Source: Desulfomonile tiedjei
Lineage (GTDB): Bacteria > Desulfobacterota > Desulfomonilia > Desulfomonilales > Desulfomonilaceae
DNA length: 36,967 nt
Direction of reading: 5' to 3'
Assembly (NCBI GenBank): GCA_016212935.1
Contig: JACRDE010000369.1
Span: forward strand, 1 to 36,967
The position numbers and the translations under genes were made by a program. The notes beneath the pieces were generated by a model. That model worked only from the letters and a program-made list of their open reading frames with translations. It searched no databases and was not told where the DNA came from. This document shows, in pieces, positions 6,341 to 15,857 of this stretch. Positions within the stretch are counted from its first letter, which is position 1. Every line of letters starts with the position of its first letter.

Positions 6341-7885
6341 TCACCAGAATTTTTTCTCGGTGGTCAATGTCTCCGGGTCGGAAGGATGCCCGGATAGCGC
6401 GGACGTACCAGAAGCTGCTCTAAGAAGAGTCTCCGTGTCCCGCAAGAGAGCTCCGACAGTTTTCAGACGAGCGGCCTCTTTTAGAAACGTCAATGCTTTC
6501 CGAAAATCTTCGGCGGCTGGAACAAGTTCGCCTCTTTCTTTTCGCGCCACCCCCCGGTTGGCGTATGCAAGGCCGTTGGATGGCTGCATCTCAATGACCT
6601 TTGAGAAAGCTTCTATAGCTCTCTCAAACTCACCTTTGAGCAGGAGGTTCTTGCCAAGGGCGTACTGCGCGTCCAGTCCGGCCGTCTTGGAATCGAGTTT
6701 AATCGCGGCGGAAAGATCCGCAATAGCTTGGCTATACCTCTTCGTGGCTTCATAGGCCGATGCTCTGCTTAGGAGCGCTCGCACATCGTTTGGATCAGCT
6801 TCAAGCGCGGCGGTCAAATCCGGAATACCCTCATCGCATCGGTTTGCAAGAACTCTGGCCTGGCCTCTCAAGCCCATTATGGACGGAGCATCGGGCATAA
6901 TGCTAAGCGCCCGGCTGAAATCCTTTTCGGCACCCTCATATTTCCCCAGGTCCAGAAGCAGCCTGCCTCGCTCGAAATATATACCTGCGTCATCTTTCTT
7001 GAGAGTCAGAAGTCTAGAATAGTCTGCAACTGCCTCATCCTTGAGTCCCATTCTTATGTATACCTGGGCCCGATTCGACAGAGCCAGCGGTGATTCGGGA
7101 TTGATTTCCAGGCTTCGGGAAAGATCAGACACAGCGTCCTTCAGGCTGTCCATTGAAGCGCGGGCCCATCCGCGATTTGTCAAAGCCTCTGAATTCCCTG
7201 GTTCGAGGGTTATGGTTCGATTGTAGGACTCTATAGCCTGGTCTATTTTGCCCTCTGTGAAAAGCAGGTTACCGCGCTTGAGAAAGGCCTTAGCATTGTT
7301 CGGATCGAGCTCGACCGCCTTGTTGAAATCGGACAAAGCCTTATCCTGAGCTTTTCGTTTTTGATGGGCCATACCGCGCATGAAATAGGCTGCAGAATCG
7401 TCTGGATCCGATTTGAGAGCCTGGCTGAGGTCCAGAATCGCTGAGTCCTCATGACCGAGCGCAAACTCGGCTTCTCCCCGAATCCGACGGGCCCCAGCAT
7501 GGTTCGGTTCCATGTTCAGTACGCGGCTCATGTCCTCCGCGGCCTTATCGTACACTTTCTTGTTGAGGTAGATAGCCCCCCGGCCGTACACCGCATCCAC
7601 CAAATTCGGATCTTTTGACACCGCCTGGTTGAAGTCTGCCAATGCCCGGTCTTCCTGTCCTTTGGCTCTGAACGCGACTCCTCGGTTGAAATATGCGCGT
7701 GCATTGTTGGGGTCATTTGCCAGTGCGCTGGTATAGAGCTGAATCGCCCTGTCCAGGTCCAATTTCCAATGCGCTTCCACACCATCCGAAAAGAGATTTT
7801 TCACGTCCGCAGCAAACACGAGTGGTGGCGCAGTTAAGACTACAATTAGAGCGGTGGTCAAGGCCCGAATTTCAATTACGGTCAT
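6341..7885 (-). CDS. exported TPR-repeat protein
   Basis: A 514-aa protein with an N-terminal signal peptide (hydrophobic ALTTALIVVLTAPPLVFA, cleavage near AFA-like residues 24-26) followed by roughly a dozen tetratricopeptide repeats covering most of the chain. Repeats show the usual 34-residue period with motifs such as AYFNRGVA, ALADFNQAV and DPNNA. It is predicted to be periplasmic or envelope-bound and to act as a protein-interaction scaffold; no catalytic domain is visible. Its ATG overlaps the stop codon of the upstream TPR gene as ATGA, so the two are translationally coupled. The last 70 residues are less repeat-like. The family call is firm; partner and function are unknown. Confidence 0.85.
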   Translation of the reverse strand: MTVIEIRALTTALIVVLTAPPLVFAADVKNLFSDGVEAHWKLDLDRAIQLYTSALANDPNNARAYFNRGVAFRAKGQEDRALADFNQAVSKDPNLVDAVYGRGAIYLNKKVYDKAAEDMSRVLNMEPNHAGARRIRGEAEFALGHEDSAILDLSQALKSDPDDSAAYFMRGMAHQKRKAQDKALSDFNKAVELDPNNAKAFLKRGNLLFTEGKIDQAIESYNRTITLEPGNSEALTNRGWARASMDSLKDAVSDLSRSLEINPESPLALSNRAQVYIRMGLKDEAVADYSRLLTLKKDDAGIYFERGRLLLDLGKYEGAEKDFSRALSIMPDAPSIMGLRGQARVLANRCDEGIPDLTAALEADPNDVRALLSRASAYEATKRYSQAIADLSAAIKLDSKTAGLDAQYALGKNLLLKGEFERAIEAFSKVIEMQPSNGLAYANRGVARKERGELVPAAEDFRKALTFLKEAARLKTVGALLRDTETLLRAASGTSALSGHPSDPETLTTEKKFW

Positions 7886-9363
7886 TTCTCTGATCCGTTT
7901 CCACGGGAAGTTGCGATCGCGTTCAAAACGGCTGCGTTGACCGGCTGCCGCAAAGAAACACCGCCTGGTTCCGGCAGACTCAAGGCCCTTGAAAAGTCCG
8001 CCCTGGAACGTTTAGGGTCTCCAAGGAAATCGTAAGCAATGCCCCTTCGCAAATAGGATTCTCTGTGTTTGGGATCGAGCTGTATTGCCCGGCTGAATTC
8101 TTCGACAGCCGCGGCAATTTGCCCCTTCTTGCCCAGAGCGATACCCAGATTGCAGTGAGACTCCGGATCGTCCGGCCGCTGGCTTGCCAGTCTCTTGAAA
8201 ATGTTCACAGCCTCTTCATAGTCGCCTGAGGCCTCTTTCAGGGTTCCGAGCATAAGGAGGGTTTCCGGATTACCGGGGTCTATGGAGTAGGCCCTCTCAA
8301 GATCCTTGATAGCTTTGTTGGGCTGGTTCATCTGGAGCAGACACTCGGCCCTGAAAGCGTAAAGGGGCGCAGAATTTGGATCAAGCTCCAAAGCTCGGTT
8401 CAAATCCGGGAGCGCGTTAGCGCATTCTCCGACACTCTTGTGTATCCATCCTCTGTTCGCATAAGCTTTTGGCAGATCGGGATTGAGGGTGATCGCCTTT
8501 GAGGTATCTCGAATCGCCTGAACAATGTTGCCCTTCTTGAAGAAAACCCATCCGCGGTTGTTGTAGGCATCGGCATGGGTGGGAGAAATGCGGACGGCCC
8601 GATTATAATCGTTTATCGCCTCATCCAGCTCTCCCTTTTTGACATGTGCGTTGCCTCTTTGGAAATAGGCCAACGCATAGTCCGGGTTAAGCTCTATGGC
8701 TCTCGTGAGATCCTTGACCGCTCCGTTAGCGTCATCCAGCTTGAGCCTGGCATTGCCTCTATTGTAGTATGCAAGAAGGTAGTTCGGATCGAGCTGCAGA
8801 GCTCGGCTGAAATCATCGATAGATTTTTCAACTTCGTTTCTTTGCAGAAGAGCCCATCCTCTGTTGTTGTATGCGTCCCTGTCGCGCGGATCGATCTCTA
8901 TGGATCGAGTAAAGTCAGCGATAGCACGATCGAAGTCACCTTTCCCGTGATAAGCGTTGCCGCGATTGTAATACGCGAGCCCATATGACTGATTGAGTTC
9001 AATCGCTTTTGAGTAGTCTTTTATCGCTTTGTCGTATTCTCCAAGTCTGTAGTATGCGCTCCCACGGTTGTTGAAGGCTGTTTCCATTCGCGGGTCCAGT
9101 TCAAGCGTTTTGGAATAATCTTGTACTGCCTCCTTGAACTTGCCGAGTCTTTCCAGGGAGAGTCCGCGTCTGAAGAAAACGTCCCCGCCCGACGCTCCCT
9201 GACGAACCGCTTTTGAAAAGAGATCTGTCGCCTTTACATGGTCTCCCATTTTTTGAGCAAGCTTGGCCTTTTCCAGGTATTCTTCTGCGGATTCCTCAGC
9301 CATCGCGGTTACAGCCAGAAGCAGTATTCCGAAAACAGCAGCGACGAGCATTTTCAATCGCAT
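7882..9363 (-). CDS. exported TPR-repeat protein (first gene of a coupled pair)
   Basis: A 493-aa protein with a signal peptide (MRLKMLVAAVFGILLLAVTA, cleavage after AMA) and at least eleven tetratricopeptide repeats with recurring AYYNRGNA, DYSKAIEL and NNRGWA segments. The high internal similarity of the repeats suggests recent repeat duplication. I start at the ATG at 9363, preceded by AAAGGAA about ten bases upstream; the GTG at 9384 has no ribosome site and would add seven residues before the signal peptide. It is followed by an ATGA overlap with the second TPR gene, which is similar in plan and may be a diverged tandem paralogue. Likely periplasmic scaffold; partners unknown. Confidence 0.87.
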   Translation of the reverse strand: MRLKMLVAAVFGILLLAVTAMAEESAEEYLEKAKLAQKMGDHVKATDLFSKAVRQGASGGDVFFRRGLSLERLGKFKEAVQDYSKTLELDPRMETAFNNRGSAYYRLGEYDKAIKDYSKAIELNQSYGLAYYNRGNAYHGKGDFDRAIADFTRSIEIDPRDRDAYNNRGWALLQRNEVEKSIDDFSRALQLDPNYLLAYYNRGNARLKLDDANGAVKDLTRAIELNPDYALAYFQRGNAHVKKGELDEAINDYNRAVRISPTHADAYNNRGWVFFKKGNIVQAIRDTSKAITLNPDLPKAYANRGWIHKSVGECANALPDLNRALELDPNSAPLYAFRAECLLQMNQPNKAIKDLERAYSIDPGNPETLLMLGTLKEASGDYEEAVNIFKRLASQRPDDPESHCNLGIALGKKGQIAAAVEEFSRAIQLDPKHRESYLRRGIAYDFLGDPKRSRADFSRALSLPEPGGVSLRQPVNAAVLNAIATSRGNGSEK

Positions 9364-9415
9364 ATTGAAAAATTCCTTTTTCACAGACGACTGCTTAATT
9401 TAATTTTACCATAAC

Positions 9416-9444: not shown

Positions 9445-9965
9445 CTTTAGTGTTTTTTACAGGTAATTTTGTCCGGATTGCCGCCAAACAGAAATGTGAG
9501 TCTATCTCACGCGAACGCGGCTTTAAGTGACTACTTGTTCCAGACAGCTTTTCACGGCGGTTGTTCCTCTGTTGCTACACCTGTGGCTTGGAATTATTGT
9601 GCAAGACACGCCACGCGCGTAGTACAATGGTGATCTGAACGCAGTAGCCTTACCGTCAAACGATGTCCCGAATCATTAATTAGTAAGCTTCAGCATGCGC
9701 GCAGGGATGTCAGTAAAGGAATTCCTCAGTTAATCGGCGAGAGCCGACATCCAGGTCTTCTGTCTCGCCTGCACCCCGAGCCTGCCTCTGACCATGAAGC
9801 GGGGTTCGTTGCGATGACGGCTTGGATTGATGGGATTCCCCTAAAGTCAGGAGCATTGACTGCCAGGCTCCTCTTCCCGCGTGAACGAATGATTGCCGAG
9901 GTGCTGAAAACTCAGTTGCGGAAACACATTTCCCTGCAATCACTTTGCAGAGTCTGGAGACTCGG
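9445..9965. other. intergenic region between divergent genes, no gene seen
   Basis: This spacer separates the minus-strand TPR pair from the plus-strand oxidoreductase. The plus-strand frame at 9814-10029 and minus-strand frame at 9710-9985 give motif-free translations and are not supported. It must contain the promoter of the oxidoreductase, but I could not pick a convincing site. No copy of the dispersed repeats was found here. Confidence 0.5.
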
Positions 9966-11972
9966 ATGTCAGAAAATTCCAGCATCCAAGGTACAGGATT
10001 TTGGCGAAGAATCCTGTTTGCGGATTTGAGTTCCGGCTCATTCTCCTTCGAGCAGCCGGACGAAAGCGTCTATCACGATTTCTTGAGCGGTGCGGGGCTC
10101 GGAATAAAAGTGCTCTGGGATCGCATGAAACCAGGAGCGGACCCGTTGGGGCCTGACAACATCCTGGGATTCACCACCGGCCTACTTACCGGAACCGGCT
10201 CATTCTTTACAGGCAGGTTCACTGTTATCGGAAAATCTCCCTTATCCGGAAGCCTCGGTGACGCAAATGCAGGGGGATCGTTTTCTTACGCGCTCAAGAG
10301 ATGCGGTATAGATGCACTGTTCTGCCTCGGAGCCGCCGAGCGGCCGGTTTACCTTTTCATCGACGAGACTTCCGCCCAGATCCTGGACGCGTCGCATTTG
10401 TGGGGTAAGGACACTATTGAAACGGAAGAAGCCCTGAAGAAGGCCCACGGGAAGGAAGTCGAAGTTGCGTGCATAGGGCCGGCGGGCGAAGCATTGAGCC
10501 GCATTTCCGGGATTGCCACGGACGAAGGGCGCATGGCTGCAAGAGGTGGCCTGGGAGCGGTTCTGGGCTCGAAGAAGTTGAAGGCCGTCGTAGCAGCAGG
10601 CAAAGCAAAGATAACTGTCGCTGACAGAAGCAAGATGGCCTCCATAAGCCGTGACTTTCTCAAGAGATTCAAGCGATTGGATTTCCTCAAAGGTGTTTTG
10701 AACGACCGAATACTGGCCATGAGCGGAATCGTAGCCGCCAAGGGTTTCTTTATTCGTCAACCGGCTTTCTTGTGGCGCTTGTTGCTCAAGAAGTTCGGGA
10801 CCCCCGCGCTCACACCAGTTTCAGCTGAGAGCGGCGATAGCCCTTTCAAGAACTGGACCGGCTCGGTAACCCGTGACTTTCCAGCCGGCCGCTACATGAA
10901 ACTCGGGGCAGGAGCGGTCACCAAATACCAAATGAAGAAATACGGCTGCTATTCCTGCCCGTTGCAATGCGGCGGCATCGTTTCCATGACAGACGGGCCT
11001 TGCAAAATCGAAAAGATGCACAAACCGGAATATGAAACCATGTGCGCGTTCGGGGGCCTGTTGCTGAATGACGACATTGCTTCGGTATTCAAGCTGAACG
11101 ATATGGCGAATCGGGCCGGAATTGACACCATCAGCTGCGGAGGAACGATGGCCTTTGCCATTGAGTGTTATTCCAGAGGAATCATAGATTATAGGGACAC
11201 CGGAGGCCTCGATCTTAACTGGGGAAATGCCGAGGCGATTATCCGGCTCATGGAAATGATAGTAAGACGCGAAGGGCTTGGTGATCTGCTTGCAGACGGG
11301 GTCAGGATCGCCGCCCGGAAAATCGGCAAAGGCTCCGAAGAGTGCGCCGTGCACTGCGGGGGAGTGGAAGCGCCCATGCACGATCCGAAATTCGACCCGG
11401 GATTCGGAGTCAGCTTCTATTGCGAGGCAGTGCCAGGCCGACACACTGTGACGTCGTATCAGTACCTCGATCTCCAGTTTCTGGAGAAACAATTCAGCCG
11501 AGCTGCAAAAATTCCGCTGGTGACGACGCGTAGGGAAAAGTACGACTACGAGAATCGAGGCGCCCCTCTGGCAGTTGGCTCGTTTTACAAGATGCTGGTT
11601 GACGCGGCTGGAGCCTGCTTGTTCGGGACTCAGTTGGGAGCGGATTTGCCTCTCTGTGAATGGATGAATGCTGCCACCGGTTGGAGCCTGTCCAACGACG
11701 AATACTTGATAATCGGAGAACGCATCGCGCAGCTGCGGCACGCTTTCAACCTAAGGGAAGGAATCAATCCCATCCATGACTTTCGGCCGCATCCAAGGGT
11801 TTACGGTGATCTTCCTCTCAATTCCGGCCCATTGAAAGGGGTGAGACTCGATCTCGAAAAACTTGCAGCGTCCTTCTATGAGGCTATGCACTGGGACGTA
11901 ACCAACGGCAAGCCGGACGGAGCATACTTGGAATTCCTCGGCCTCTCCGATGTGGCCGAGCAGTTGTCCTGA
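9966..11972 (+). CDS. aldehyde:ferredoxin oxidoreductase family protein (tungsten/molybdenum pterin enzyme)
   Basis: A 668-aa enzyme of the AOR family, which oxidises aldehydes to carboxylates with ferredoxin as acceptor, using a bis-pterin tungsten or molybdenum centre and a [4Fe-4S] cluster. The N-terminus (RILFADLSSG, then GIKVLWDRMKPG) matches the family start. Cluster cysteines are visible as CYSCPLQC (Cys328, 331, 335) with a distant fourth in GACLFGT (Cys551). The GGVEAPMHDPKFDPGFG stretch corresponds to the conserved region near the pterin. It is somewhat longer than classical AORs (about 605 aa). The ATG at 9966 has GGAG eight bases upstream; a TTG at 9945 would add seven residues. 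No MoaD-like or partner subunit is adjacent. The actual substrate is not predictable. Confidence 0.9.
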   Translation: MSENSSIQGTGFWRRILFADLSSGSFSFEQPDESVYHDFLSGAGLGIKVLWDRMKPGADPLGPDNILGFTTGLLTGTGSFFTGRFTVIGKSPLSGSLGDANAGGSFSYALKRCGIDALFCLGAAERPVYLFIDETSAQILDASHLWGKDTIETEEALKKAHGKEVEVACIGPAGEALSRISGIATDEGRMAARGGLGAVLGSKKLKAVVAAGKAKITVADRSKMASISRDFLKRFKRLDFLKGVLNDRILAMSGIVAAKGFFIRQPAFLWRLLLKKFGTPALTPVSAESGDSPFKNWTGSVTRDFPAGRYMKLGAGAVTKYQMKKYGCYSCPLQCGGIVSMTDGPCKIEKMHKPEYETMCAFGGLLLNDDIASVFKLNDMANRAGIDTISCGGTMAFAIECYSRGIIDYRDTGGLDLNWGNAEAIIRLMEMIVRREGLGDLLADGVRIAARKIGKGSEECAVHCGGVEAPMHDPKFDPGFGVSFYCEAVPGRHTVTSYQYLDLQFLEKQFSRAAKIPLVTTRREKYDYENRGAPLAVGSFYKMLVDAAGACLFGTQLGADLPLCEWMNAATGWSLSNDEYLIIGERIAQLRHAFNLREGINPIHDFRPHPRVYGDLPLNSGPLKGVRLDLEKLAASFYEAMHWDVTNGKPDGAYLEFLGLSDVAEQLS

Positions 11973-12196: not shown

Positions 12197-12673
12197 TTGA
12201 GATACGAGACAGCGCCCATGTCGCCCGTCATAAAGGTGATTACCACTATAATCGTTGCTTTGACTGCTGTGCTTCTTGCAATATCAATTTTGCGGCCGCC
12301 GGTGTTCATCCCCGCTATGCTGCTGGGTTTAGTGACCCTGGGCTGCTACTTGCGTGCCCCTGTGGCTTATTACGTGTCCGGGGCCGGTTTGACGGTCCGG
12401 TTTCATTGGGGCCGGAAAACCTTCGGCAAAATAGTGAAGGTTTCTAGGATTGAGGGGTCCGTGGGATTCACCCTTCGCCTCTGGGGAAACGGAGGCCTGT
12501 TTGCTGGCACTGGAATTTTCTGGAACCGGACCTGGGGCATATTCAGGGCTTATGTAACGACATCGAATCGATCGAACCTCCTCTTGCTAGAAACTGAAAC
12601 CGGCAACGTACTTATATCACCGGCCAATCCCGGGGATTTCTTGGACCGGCTTGAATTACAACAAAGTGGCTGA
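12197..12673 (+). CDS. small membrane protein with bacterial PH-like domain
   Basis: A 158-aa protein if translation starts at the TTG at 12197, which has AGGGAG nine bases upstream; an ATG at 12218 is an alternative. Two closely spaced hydrophobic segments (about residues 14-32 and 34-50) form a membrane hairpin, followed by a soluble beta-rich domain whose RIEGSVGFTLRLWGNGGL, GIFWNRTWG, YVTTSNRSNLLLLET and ISPANPGDFLDRL segments resemble the bPH_5-type bacterial PH domain. Function is unknown; such domains often sit at the membrane surface. It precedes the roadblock/GTPase cassette by about 170 bp on the same strand, so a functional link is possible but unproven. Confidence 0.7.
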   Translation: MRYETAPMSPVIKVITTIIVALTAVLLAISILRPPVFIPAMLLGLVTLGCYLRAPVAYYVSGAGLTVRFHWGRKTFGKIVKVSRIEGSVGFTLRLWGNGGLFAGTGIFWNRTWGIFRAYVTTSNRSNLLLLETETGNVLISPANPGDFLDRLELQQSG

Positions 12674-12840
12674 AGATCCTACCCAGGCAGTTCGGCAAAT
12701 TTCCTCGAGGCAGCGAGAAAAAAACCTTGAGGACCATTTGACCAACGACGTATATTAGATCAGTATAGGTATAGTTATCACCGGCCCGGCCACCGGGTTC
12801 GACTTGTCATTAACATACGGTGATTCTTGGGGAAAAGGTT

Positions 12841-13323
12841 ATGAAGAGCATCGGTGAAATGATTAAAGGCATGCTGGAGAGTGTCCCCGGCTTGATTGCG
12901 GCAGTGGTGATAGATAGCGACGGCATCCCTATTGCTATGGAAGGCAAGATAGATATGGAACCCGAAGATCTCGGGGCCATGCTTGCCTCAGCGTTTCAAT
13001 GCTATCAGGCGCTCGGGGACGGCTTGGGACAATTCTATTGCGAGCTCGTAACTGCCGAATTCGACGGGATTAATGTCGCACAACAGATGATGCCCAGGGG
13101 ATCGCTGATATTGGTAGCGGAGAAGTCTTCGCCCATGGGTGTTGTTCGGGTGGCTGCCAGGACCGGAAGACAGGCCTTGAACGAGGCGATGGAAACAACA
13201 GCGGAAGCCCGTAAACGGTTCATGGAAGAACACAAACTCCGTCTTCCCAGAATCCCTGGTGACCCTGGCAAACAGCGGCCTGTGAGCCTTCTTACATTCC
13301 TGGAAAAGAAAAAGAAAGGATAA
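12841..13323 (+). CDS. roadblock/LC7 domain protein (MglB-like)
   Basis: A 160-aa roadblock/LC7 protein. The segment LIAAVVIDSDGIPIAMEGK (about residues 20-38) is the family's characteristic strand-turn-strand, followed by the long helix DLGAMLASAFQCYQALGDGLG and the strand pair ending in LILVAEKSSPMGVVRVAARTG. The C-terminal 30 residues are basic and extended (LEKKKKG). In known systems MglB-type roadblock proteins bind MglA-type GTPases and speed GTP hydrolysis at a cell pole. The ATG at 12841 has GGGGA about seven bases upstream; a GTG at 12820 is less likely. Only 6 bases separate it from the GTPase gene, indicating an operon. Confidence 0.85.
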   Translation: MKSIGEMIKGMLESVPGLIAAVVIDSDGIPIAMEGKIDMEPEDLGAMLASAFQCYQALGDGLGQFYCELVTAEFDGINVAQQMMPRGSLILVAEKSSPMGVVRVAARTGRQALNEAMETTAEARKRFMEEHKLRLPRIPGDPGKQRPVSLLTFLEKKKKG

Positions 13324-13329
13324 ATTACA

Positions 13330-13914
13330 TTGAAAATTGTCGGTGACCGAATCTATCTAAAACTAATCTTTTTCGGCACTGCTTTGGCTGGAAAAACCAC
13401 CGCCCTGGAATGGCTTTTCTATCATGCCATTCCAGACGAAATGAAGCTGGTAAAGGAACTCAGGCAGGTTAAGACATCGTTCGGGCAGACTTTGCTTTTC
13501 GATTTTGCACCCATAGAAATCTCTCAAAATATTATAACCCGCATGTTCTCCGCCACAGGCCAGGACTACTACAAAGGTACCAGGACGAAAGTCCTTGCAG
13601 ATTCGGACGGAATCTTCATAGTCGTCGATTCACAAAAGAACCAACTGGAGAACAACCGCCTAATACTCCAGGAGTTGGAAAAATGCCGCAAGGAAATGGA
13701 CGGACTGGCGGAAGCTGACATAGTGGTCATGTATAACAAGAACGATTTAGACGAAACTTTCCCCATGGATTTTCTAAGCCAGAATTTGGGCCTGAAACAG
13801 TGGGAAGGTTTTTCCACTTGCGCGCTTACGGGCGAAAATCTCGAAGATGCTCTTATCAGTATGCTGAGGAAGCTTACAGAGAAGCTCAAGGTACAGGGTT
13901 TCAACGTGGAATGA
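13330..13914 (+). CDS. MglA-like small Ras-family GTPase
   Basis: A 194-aa small GTPase. The G1 loop is FFGTALAGKTT (Gly16-Thr23), parallel to the YYGPGLCGKTT of MglA; the G4 motif is YNKNDL (Asn136-Asp139). The switch II area reads FSATGQDYY where classical MglA has TVPGQ, so the catalytic region is altered although the Gly-Gln pair is kept. TLLFDFAPIE matches the MglA TLFFDFLPL stretch. Translation appears to start at a TTG (13330), with AAGGA about nine bases upstream. It lies between two roadblock-type genes and shares an ATGA overlap with the second, so the three products probably work as one complex. By analogy with MglA it may control polarity or surface organisation; that is inference. 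Confidence 0.85.
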   Translation: MKIVGDRIYLKLIFFGTALAGKTTALEWLFYHAIPDEMKLVKELRQVKTSFGQTLLFDFAPIEISQNIITRMFSATGQDYYKGTRTKVLADSDGIFIVVDSQKNQLENNRLILQELEKCRKEMDGLAEADIVVMYNKNDLDETFPMDFLSQNLGLKQWEGFSTCALTGENLEDALISMLRKLTEKLKVQGFNVE

Positions 13915-14297
13915 TAGTATTCGATAGCAAGATAGAAGAAGCGTTAAATAGCGGGTTAGCGCTGCAAGTGATCATCGCGGATTCGGACGGGTTCGTGCTG
14001 GATAATGGCGGATACGTGTTCGATCCGGATCAGTTGGTCGCCCTTTTCTTGTCTACGCAGCGTCAAATGCAGGAGGGTGCCGTTCGATTTGATTTCGGGC
14101 AGATTTCTGAGTTCAGTTTTTGCCTCACAGGAACTGAGCTCACAGTTGCCTGTCGCCGCGTCTTCTGGCCGGACGGCGGATGCGTGGTTGTAGTAGTTGT
14201 CCCTGAAGGCGCCGCACACAACATAATCATAGCGGACGTCATAAGGGCCTTCGGAAAGTACGTCGAAGACCAACGGGCCGCGCTGCGAAACTCCTGA
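13911..14297 (+). CDS. second roadblock-like regulator of the GTPase
   Basis: A 128-aa protein starting at the ATG of an ATGA overlap with the GTPase gene; the same frame extends upstream inside that gene but the coupled start is the natural choice. The segment LQVIIADSDGFVLDNGGYVF has the roadblock-type strand-turn-strand, followed by a helix (DQLVALFLSTQRQM) and strands ending in GCVVVVVVPEG. It is diverged from the roadblock protein at 12841 and I rate the fold assignment as probable. Position suggests it is a second GAP, exchange factor or dimer partner for the GTPase. Confidence 0.7.
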   Translation: MIVFDSKIEEALNSGLALQVIIADSDGFVLDNGGYVFDPDQLVALFLSTQRQMQEGAVRFDFGQISEFSFCLTGTELTVACRRVFWPDGGCVVVVVVPEGAAHNIIIADVIRAFGKYVEDQRAALRNS

Positions 14298-14350: not shown

Positions 14351-14866
14351 CTAGGAAAGTCTCTTGAGAGTGTCTCGGTAGACATTCAGGTCCGAGTCCG
14401 AGAACACCACCAGCAGAACCTTTTCAATTTGCGGAAAGCGTTCTAGCTGGGCCAAGCAGGTTTCTAGTGCAATTTGCGATGCCTCCGCTATGGGATAGCC
14501 GTACGCGCCTGTGCTTATGGAAGGAAAAGCCAAGGACTTCAGTCCGTTTTCTGCCGCGACTTCAAAGCTTCTCCTGTAGCAGCTTTCCAGCAATCTGGCT
14601 TCGCCTGAGGCCCCTCCCCTGTAAACCGGGCCCACAGTGTGAATGACGTTCCTCGCCTTGAGCCTGTACCCCTTGGTGATTTTCGCGTCGCCGGTATCGC
14701 AGCCACCCAAGGAGCGGCACTCTGCCAGGAGTTGGGATCCAGCGGCGCGATGAATGGCTCCGTCTACCCCTCCCCCGCCCAACAGTGAATTGTTTGCTGC
14801 ATTGACAATAGCATCCACGTCCACAGATGTAATGTCACCTTTTGTGAGCTGTATTCTATCCTTCAT
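14351..14866 (-). CDS. macro-domain protein (O-acetyl-ADP-ribose deacetylase-like)
   Basis: A 171-aa single macro domain. The signature region [17 protein letters not shown] followed by [14 protein letters not shown] binds ADP-ribose, and [14 protein letters not shown] forms the distal phosphate loop; both match the YmdB/MacroD group that hydrolyses O-acetyl-ADP-ribose or removes ADP-ribose from proteins. Length and motifs are complete. The ATG has GGGGAGGA seven bases upstream. It converges with the roadblock gene and is not obviously in an operon. Whether the substrate is a small molecule or modified macromolecule is not visible from sequence. Confidence 0.9.
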
Positions 14867-15383: not shown

Positions 15384-15569
15384 TCACACCTCGTCTATCC
15401 TGATGGCGTCTTGCGGACACACTGCAGTGCATGACTCGCAGCCCGTGCACAGTGACGGATCATAAACGCATATCTCAGAATCTTTGTCCTTGAAAACCAA
15501 TTTTGGACAAATGCGAGCGCACGCCTGGCAGTTGGTGCATTTGTCATCTTTTATTACTGGTATAAACAT
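15384..15569 (-). CDS. 2x[4Fe-4S] ferredoxin
   Basis: A 61-aa low-potential electron carrier. Two cluster motifs are complete: CTNCQACARICP near the N-terminus and CTGCESCTAVCP near the C-terminus, each giving CxxCxxCxxxCP. The start at 15569 (MFIPVI) has GAGGGG about nine bases upstream; an in-frame ATG at 15593 would add eight residues and is preceded by no better site. It stands alone on the minus strand. Ferredoxins of this kind accept electrons from enzymes such as the aldehyde oxidoreductase found 3.4 kb away, but nothing in the sequence ties the two together. Confidence 0.88.
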   Translation of the reverse strand: MFIPVIKDDKCTNCQACARICPKLVFKDKDSEICVYDPSLCTGCESCTAVCPQDAIRIDEV

Positions 15570-15857
15570 ACGACACAGCCCCTCTACAATCATATGCTGC
15601 CCAAAATTTAAACATCAAGCGCGTGCCTGTCCAGCGACGATAACGTGAATCACGGCCTGCCTTACCCCATTTCGCAAATATTCTTACAGGACAGGCGGTG
15701 TGCCTCCCGAGCGAACTCGGATCGTGCCGTCCGCAGCGAATAAGGCATGGCGCCTGACCGCATAAATTGCCTGAATCCTCTTTTTCCCTTGGAAAAAATA
15801 AGTCTTCAGGCAAGTGTTATAGGGGTTGCCAAAAATATCGTCCGGTTGATTTCCGCA

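Follow-up and report, generated by a model that had tools for sequence, protein, structure and literature searches.

A gene cassette encoding an MglA-family GTPase without arginine finger, a roadblock protein and a probable second roadblock protein in Desulfomonile tiedjei and relatives, and its association with chemosensory genes

The window, i.e., the whole stretch of 36,967 nucleotides of Desulfomonile tiedjei DNA that was analyzed, is contig C239 of the assembly referred to here as G000 (647 contigs). Its nearest relative among the genomes compared, G001, belongs to the same genus and consists of 6.5 Mb in two contigs. The following features of the window are relevant here:

12197 (or ATG at 12218) to 12673, + strand: PH-like (bPH_5) protein with a hydrophobic N-terminus; a neighbor and not a cassette member
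12727 to 12756, + strand: promoter-like TTGAGG-18-TATATT in the gap between the PH-like gene and RB1; weak, with 1 found and 2.4 expected by chance
12841 to 13323, + strand: RB1, roadblock/LC7 protein of 160 aa whose C-terminal tail is rich in Lys
13315 to 13320, + strand: Shine-Dalgarno-like AAAGGA in the 3' end of RB1, preceding the TTG start of the GTPase gene
13330 to 13914, + strand: MglA-family small GTPase of 194 aa, TTG start; Pfam Arf, 4e-9
13486 to 13488, + strand: codon of Gln53, which alignments place where MglA has its intrinsic arginine finger (Arg53)
13549 to 13563, + strand: switch II SATGQ (TVPGQ in MglA), in all four cassette GTPases
13911 to 14297, + strand: RB2, probable divergent second roadblock protein of 128 aa

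Whole-genome searches confirmed a three-gene cassette, RB1-GTPase-RB2 (all on the + strand of the window), which is present in four of the 18 Desulfomonilaceae genomes (G000, G001, G009, and G011). The gene order, the 6-nt gap between RB1 and the GTPase gene, the 4-nt overlap (ATGA) of the GTPase gene with RB2, and the TTG start of the GTPase gene are identical in all four carriers, which bears out the coupling of three genes that a preliminary description had proposed. Identities to the window proteins in the other three carriers amount to 74-93% for RB1, 79-90% for the GTPase, and 64-88% for RB2. Between cassette genomes dN ranges from 0.04 to 0.24 while synonymous sites are saturated or nearly saturated, indicating that all three genes are under strong purifying selection. 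Close relatives of the cassette were not found outside the Desulfomonilaceae in 395 genomes of the phylum, nor in other phyla as covered by a peptide-pattern scan only. Among these 395 genomes, GTPase identity falls from 79% to about 35%, the remainder being ordinary MglA-type matches, and RB2 gave just marginal matches beyond the family (E 0.001-0.009). The peptide-pattern scan of genome contigs, a method that detects close relatives only, returned two loci, belonging to one Desulfomonile sp. and one Desulfomonilaceae metagenome-assembled genome.

In G000 and G001 the cassette is flanked by TPR genes upstream and a macrodomain gene downstream, both in antisense orientation. The former are two adjacent genes with tandem TPR repeats (6341 to 9384, - strand) that are syntenic in G001; the macrodomain protein (14351 to 14866, - strand) is also encoded downstream in G001, and a small two-cluster ferredoxin (15384 to 15593, - strand) is encoded downstream of the cassette in the window.

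The preliminary description had placed a membrane-anchored PH-like protein at the head of a four-gene unit. Such a gene with a hydrophobic N-terminus is indeed present, and its product passes the Pfam bPH_5 cut-off (E=2.9e-11, 43.8 bits versus 22.5). The four-gene order, however, occurs in G000 only, and the PH-like gene is missing from the cassette locus in G001, G009, and G011. In G001 the TPR and macrodomain genes also border the cassette, but neither the aldehyde-oxidoreductase gene nor the PH gene is present between them; both are likewise missing at the cassette in G009 and G011. An aldehyde ferredoxin oxidoreductase gene (9945 to 11972) and the PH gene thus constitute an insertion or deletion difference between the window and G001. 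The single other PH homolog among 60 relatives (44% identity) is located on contig C302 of G009, unlinked to the cassette and among other neighbors. Moreover, a 167-nt gap separates the PH-like gene from RB1 in G000, and the TTGAGG and TATATT elements within it also align, weakly, upstream of RB1 in G001, the one genome for which alignment of upstream DNA with the window was informative. On basis of its absence from the locus elsewhere, the unlinked homolog in G009, and the promoter-like site in the gap, the PH-like protein is considered a neighbor, and its candidacy as a module member, including the proposed role as membrane anchor, was rejected on conservation.

The GTPase belongs to the MglA family in the broad sense. 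It is Ras-like; among PDB entries, the MglA proteins of Thermus and Myxococcus resemble it best in sequence (3t12, E=4e-17), and its predicted model superimposes on MglA structures with TM scores of 0.81-0.88. Besides, it contains the G1 motif GTALAGKTT and the G4 motif NKND, and it is preceded at 6 nt by a gene, RB1, of the Robl_LC7 family. Within the classification of Wuichet and Sogaard-Andersen (PMC4316618), Group 1 is characterized by Arg and TVPGQ, and Groups 2-5 by Thr and GTPGQ. The cassette GTPase fits neither: it carries Gln instead of the arginine finger next to the G2 Thr as well as instead of the Thr of Groups 2-5, and SATGQ instead of TVPGQ or GTPGQ. The altered switch II noted in the preliminary description is real, and the alteration goes further than was described, since the arginine finger is also gone. 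Among 59 distinct GTPases of the phylum, 47 combine RT with TVPGQ, eight combine KT with TVPGQ, and the four with QT and SATGQ are the cassette proteins only. These four retain the catalytic Gln, the G2 Thr, the P-loop, and NKxD, and they are positioned on a very long stem branch in the phylogenetic tree. In Myxococcus xanthus MglA, substitution T78S at the first motif position is tolerated, while P80A abolishes function (PMC3000849). MglB is known to shift the arginine of MglA towards the active site, inserting nothing of its own (PMC6876712), and loss of this arginine should consequently alter the control of hydrolysis. Judging from the motifs, the GTPase could be permanently on, or entirely non-catalytic.

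The eight GTPases with Lys at the arginine-finger position form a canonical-looking MglA clade from eight genomes of the family (L060, L064, L066, L071, L075, L089, L090, and L100), and the members that were checked adjoin a protein of roughly at least 280 aa with a C-terminal roadblock domain.

Of the two different roadblock proteins proposed to flank the GTPase, RB1 is supported by a Pfam Robl_LC7 match above the cut-off (E=8.1e-6), by profile-profile comparison with a roadblock profile (hhalign p=1.3e-7), and by a predicted topology, a-b-b-a-b-b-b-a, that matches the roadblock order; its top PDB sequence match is MglB, at a non-significant E=0.29. RB1 and the GTPase were modeled as a read-through chain with an alignment derived from GTPase rows only, and the model contained both folds, with low confidence for the switches and the RB1 tail, and is used here for the folds only. 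For RB2 the assignment is likely and not proven, as no match was found in Pfam, NCBIfam, or PDB sequences. Its AlphaFold model, of moderate confidence (pLDDT 63), has the element order of a roadblock, a-b-(b)-a-b-b-b-a with a weak second strand. The best Foldseek matches are Ragulator (LAMTOR) roadblocks (prob 0.87-0.90, E 0.045-0.051, TM about 0.37), followed by dynein-arm chains, a Streptomyces roadblock, and MglB, none of them significant. Comparison with the roadblock profile was weakly positive (hhalign p=0.0019), with a score exceeding those of 100 out of 100 column shuffles and of the reversed profile. Profile comparison of RB1 with RB2 gave no significant alignment. Both proteins contain DSDG, whereas roadblocks encoded directly beside Arg- or Lys-type MglA in these genomes have AG or EG at this turn. 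An Asp-Gly (DG) pair is described in the roadblock partners of MglA groups lacking the arginine (PMC4316618). Taking topology, the weak profile match, and the DG motif together, RB2 is probably a roadblock protein.

A stand-alone homolog of RB2 (L038; G002 C277:453-809; 40% identity) is located near a contig end, and no GTPase gene was seen beside it. Two roadblock genes near one MglA gene were also observed at three other loci in the family, on C428 (L057, L079) and C114 (L059, L094) of G000 and on C8 of G006 (L095, L086), where receiver and PATAN-like proteins are encoded nearby and the turn is EG in one roadblock and DG in the other.

In two of the four carriers the cassette is physically linked to chemosensory genes, in different arrangements. 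This cluster, which cannot be seen from the window itself, gives the strongest hint of function. In G011 the order is MCP-RB1-GTPase-RB2-CheW-CheR-CheW-MCP-CheA, in which the neighboring MCP, CheW, CheR, and CheW were confirmed by Pfam, and in G009 it is CheA-CheB-RR-PATAN-MglA-HK/PATAN-RB1-GTPase-RB2 on one strand. In the remaining two carriers, G000 and G001, this che cluster is likewise present, including its MglA gene, and the cassette is located elsewhere; according to Pfam the cluster of G001 encodes CheA, CheB, a receiver-PAS protein, a receiver-DUF4388 (PATAN) protein, a Ras-type GTPase, and a PAS-kinase-receiver-DUF4388 protein. The che-linked, canonical MglA proteins form a single clade (support 98/91) whose distribution over the 18 genomes coincides exactly with that of the cassette; they are missing in the remaining 14 family genomes, including G004, G006, and G008, which are 96-100% complete. 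By a simple count that ignores relatedness, the chance of such an exact four-in-18 match is 1 in 3060. In the RpoB tree the four carriers are not shown as a clade, and the sister of G011 is G002, an 82% complete genome without the cassette. With only four carrier genomes the co-occurrence has little power. Beside the che-linked MglA genes no roadblock gene was detectable by Pfam, with the exception of RB1 itself at a distance of approximately 3 kb in G009.

Frz/Pil-like che clusters were more generally observed in the Desulfomonilaceae (G001 C1:38000-57900, L129; L068, L107, and L130-L133), MglA and PATAN being optional components; G008, for example, has che genes without MglA.

Several features of the cassette have precedents. 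It shares with the Group 1 MglA/MglB systems of Myxococcus and Thermus the GTPase fold, the G1 and G4 motifs, an upstream roadblock gene, and a chemosensory link (Frz in M. xanthus), and it differs from them by R53 to Q, TVPGQ to SATGQ, the second roadblock gene, and the second, che-linked MglA; unlike the che-linked cassette, M. xanthus mglA is distant from the genes of its signaling partners (PMC4316618). The use of two very dissimilar roadblocks in one GTPase system is reminiscent of MglB and MglC of M. xanthus, which share less than 9% identity (PMC7949163), but here both roadblock genes flank the GTPase gene in one operon, and the likeness to MglC carries no claim of orthology. A GTPase gene coupled to two roadblock genes is also found in the 1:2 MglA:MglB systems of Group 3 (beta/gamma-Proteobacteria) and a subset of Group 1 (PMC4316618), although Group 3 has a receiver/wHTH-like partner, Thr for Arg, and GTPGQ, and the cassette motifs fit neither set. 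The actinobacterial conservons (CvnA-D) likewise pair a roadblock protein with a GTPase of the MglA type that lacks the arginine, but the gene neighborhoods of the cassette contain no conserved CvnA-type kinase or CvnC, and the motifs differ as well. Finally, the RB2 model best matches the LAMTOR roadblocks of the eukaryotic Rag/Ragulator system, and two GTPases and two roadblocks may share a pathway in both cases, but the cassette provides no evidence for heterodimers of either GTPases or roadblocks. The 1:2 MglA:MglB systems, PATAN neighbors, and the Frz-MglA link have already been published (PMC4316618). As far as checked, the combination of motifs, the operon in which roadblock genes enclose the GTPase gene, and the physical linkage to a che cluster with a second MglA are new, and a search of the accessible literature yielded no paper naming both Desulfomonile and MglA.

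The order of the genes, the motifs, the degree of conservation, the co-occurrence, and, in two genomes, the linkage were observed; from these we infer the biochemistry, the partners, and the output of the system as follows. The cassette would encode an MglA-family switch whose GTPase has lost its arginine finger and acquired a changed switch II, and which would be regulated by RB1 and RB2, made in step with it. RB1 may be an MglB-like partner of the GAP/GEF type, and RB2 may modify RB1, as proposed for MglC with respect to MglB, or form a mixed dimer with it. As the arginine is lacking, unaided hydrolysis is expected to be slow, and the switch would lean more on its partners. The cassette would share a pathway with the Frz/Pil-like cluster, comprising MCP, two CheW, CheR, CheA, CheB, and receiver-PATAN proteins, and RB1 or RB2 may additionally serve the canonical MglA encoded by this cluster, for which no separate roadblock gene was detected. 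A putative role of the cassette as a polarity module is possible. The Desulfomonile strains known so far are described as non-motile and as having a collar-like invagination of the cell wall (PMC7773648), which makes gliding unlikely as an output; candidate outputs are the control of gene expression, of pili, of a polar structure or, speculatively, of the collar.

This explanation has to be weighed against other readings of the same data. The cassette could be a stand-alone MglA-type module with two roadblocks, of the published 1:2 kind, with an accidental che neighborhood, for which its unlinked position in G000 and G001 can be advanced, together with the precedent of 1:2 systems (PMC4316618) and the apparent presence of two more such loci in G000 (C428 and C114). 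Linkage in two genomes with two differing arrangements, and the finding of che-linked MglA in the same four genomes, argue against accident, and we regard a stand-alone module as unlikely. An appreciably smaller chance is given to a pseudo-GTPase, which would bind nucleotide with little or no hydrolysis and would act as a scaffold or as a tethered partner of the che-linked MglA. Retention of the catalytic Gln, the G2 Thr, the P-loop, and NKxD speaks against it, as do the arginine-less Groups 2-5, of which the Group 2 member CvnD9 has GTPase activity (PMC4316618), even though the Gln at the arginine-finger position, the very long stem branch, and a Thr in SATGQ in place of the Pro that is essential in M. 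xanthus (P80A; PMC3000849) would be in agreement with such a protein.

A four-gene membrane-anchored module that includes the PH protein could draw on the PH gene being the nearest upstream gene on the same strand, and is very improbable in view of the absence of this gene from the locus in three other genomes, the 167-nt gap with a promoter-like site that has a counterpart in G001, and the unlinked homolog in G009. An MglA-type switch without arginine finger, regulated by two roadblock proteins and working with a chemosensory pathway and the MglA of that pathway, is the reading towards which we lean, by a narrow measure. Its more elaborate version, a switch of two GTPases and two roadblocks in which the cassette GTPase and the che-linked MglA would pair functionally and RB1/RB2 would provide a mixed platform for both in a Rag/Ragulator-like manner, driven by the chemosensory kinase, is suggested by analogy and appears improbable.

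With a GTPase outside both published motif sets and two roadblock proteins in one operon, the cassette constitutes a compact natural test of roadblock regulation in the absence of an arginine finger, in a genus of which D. tiedjei is a cultured species. Since known Desulfomonile strains are described as non-motile and collared, an MglA-type switch that is linked to chemosensory functions may serve a purpose other than motility in these bacteria.
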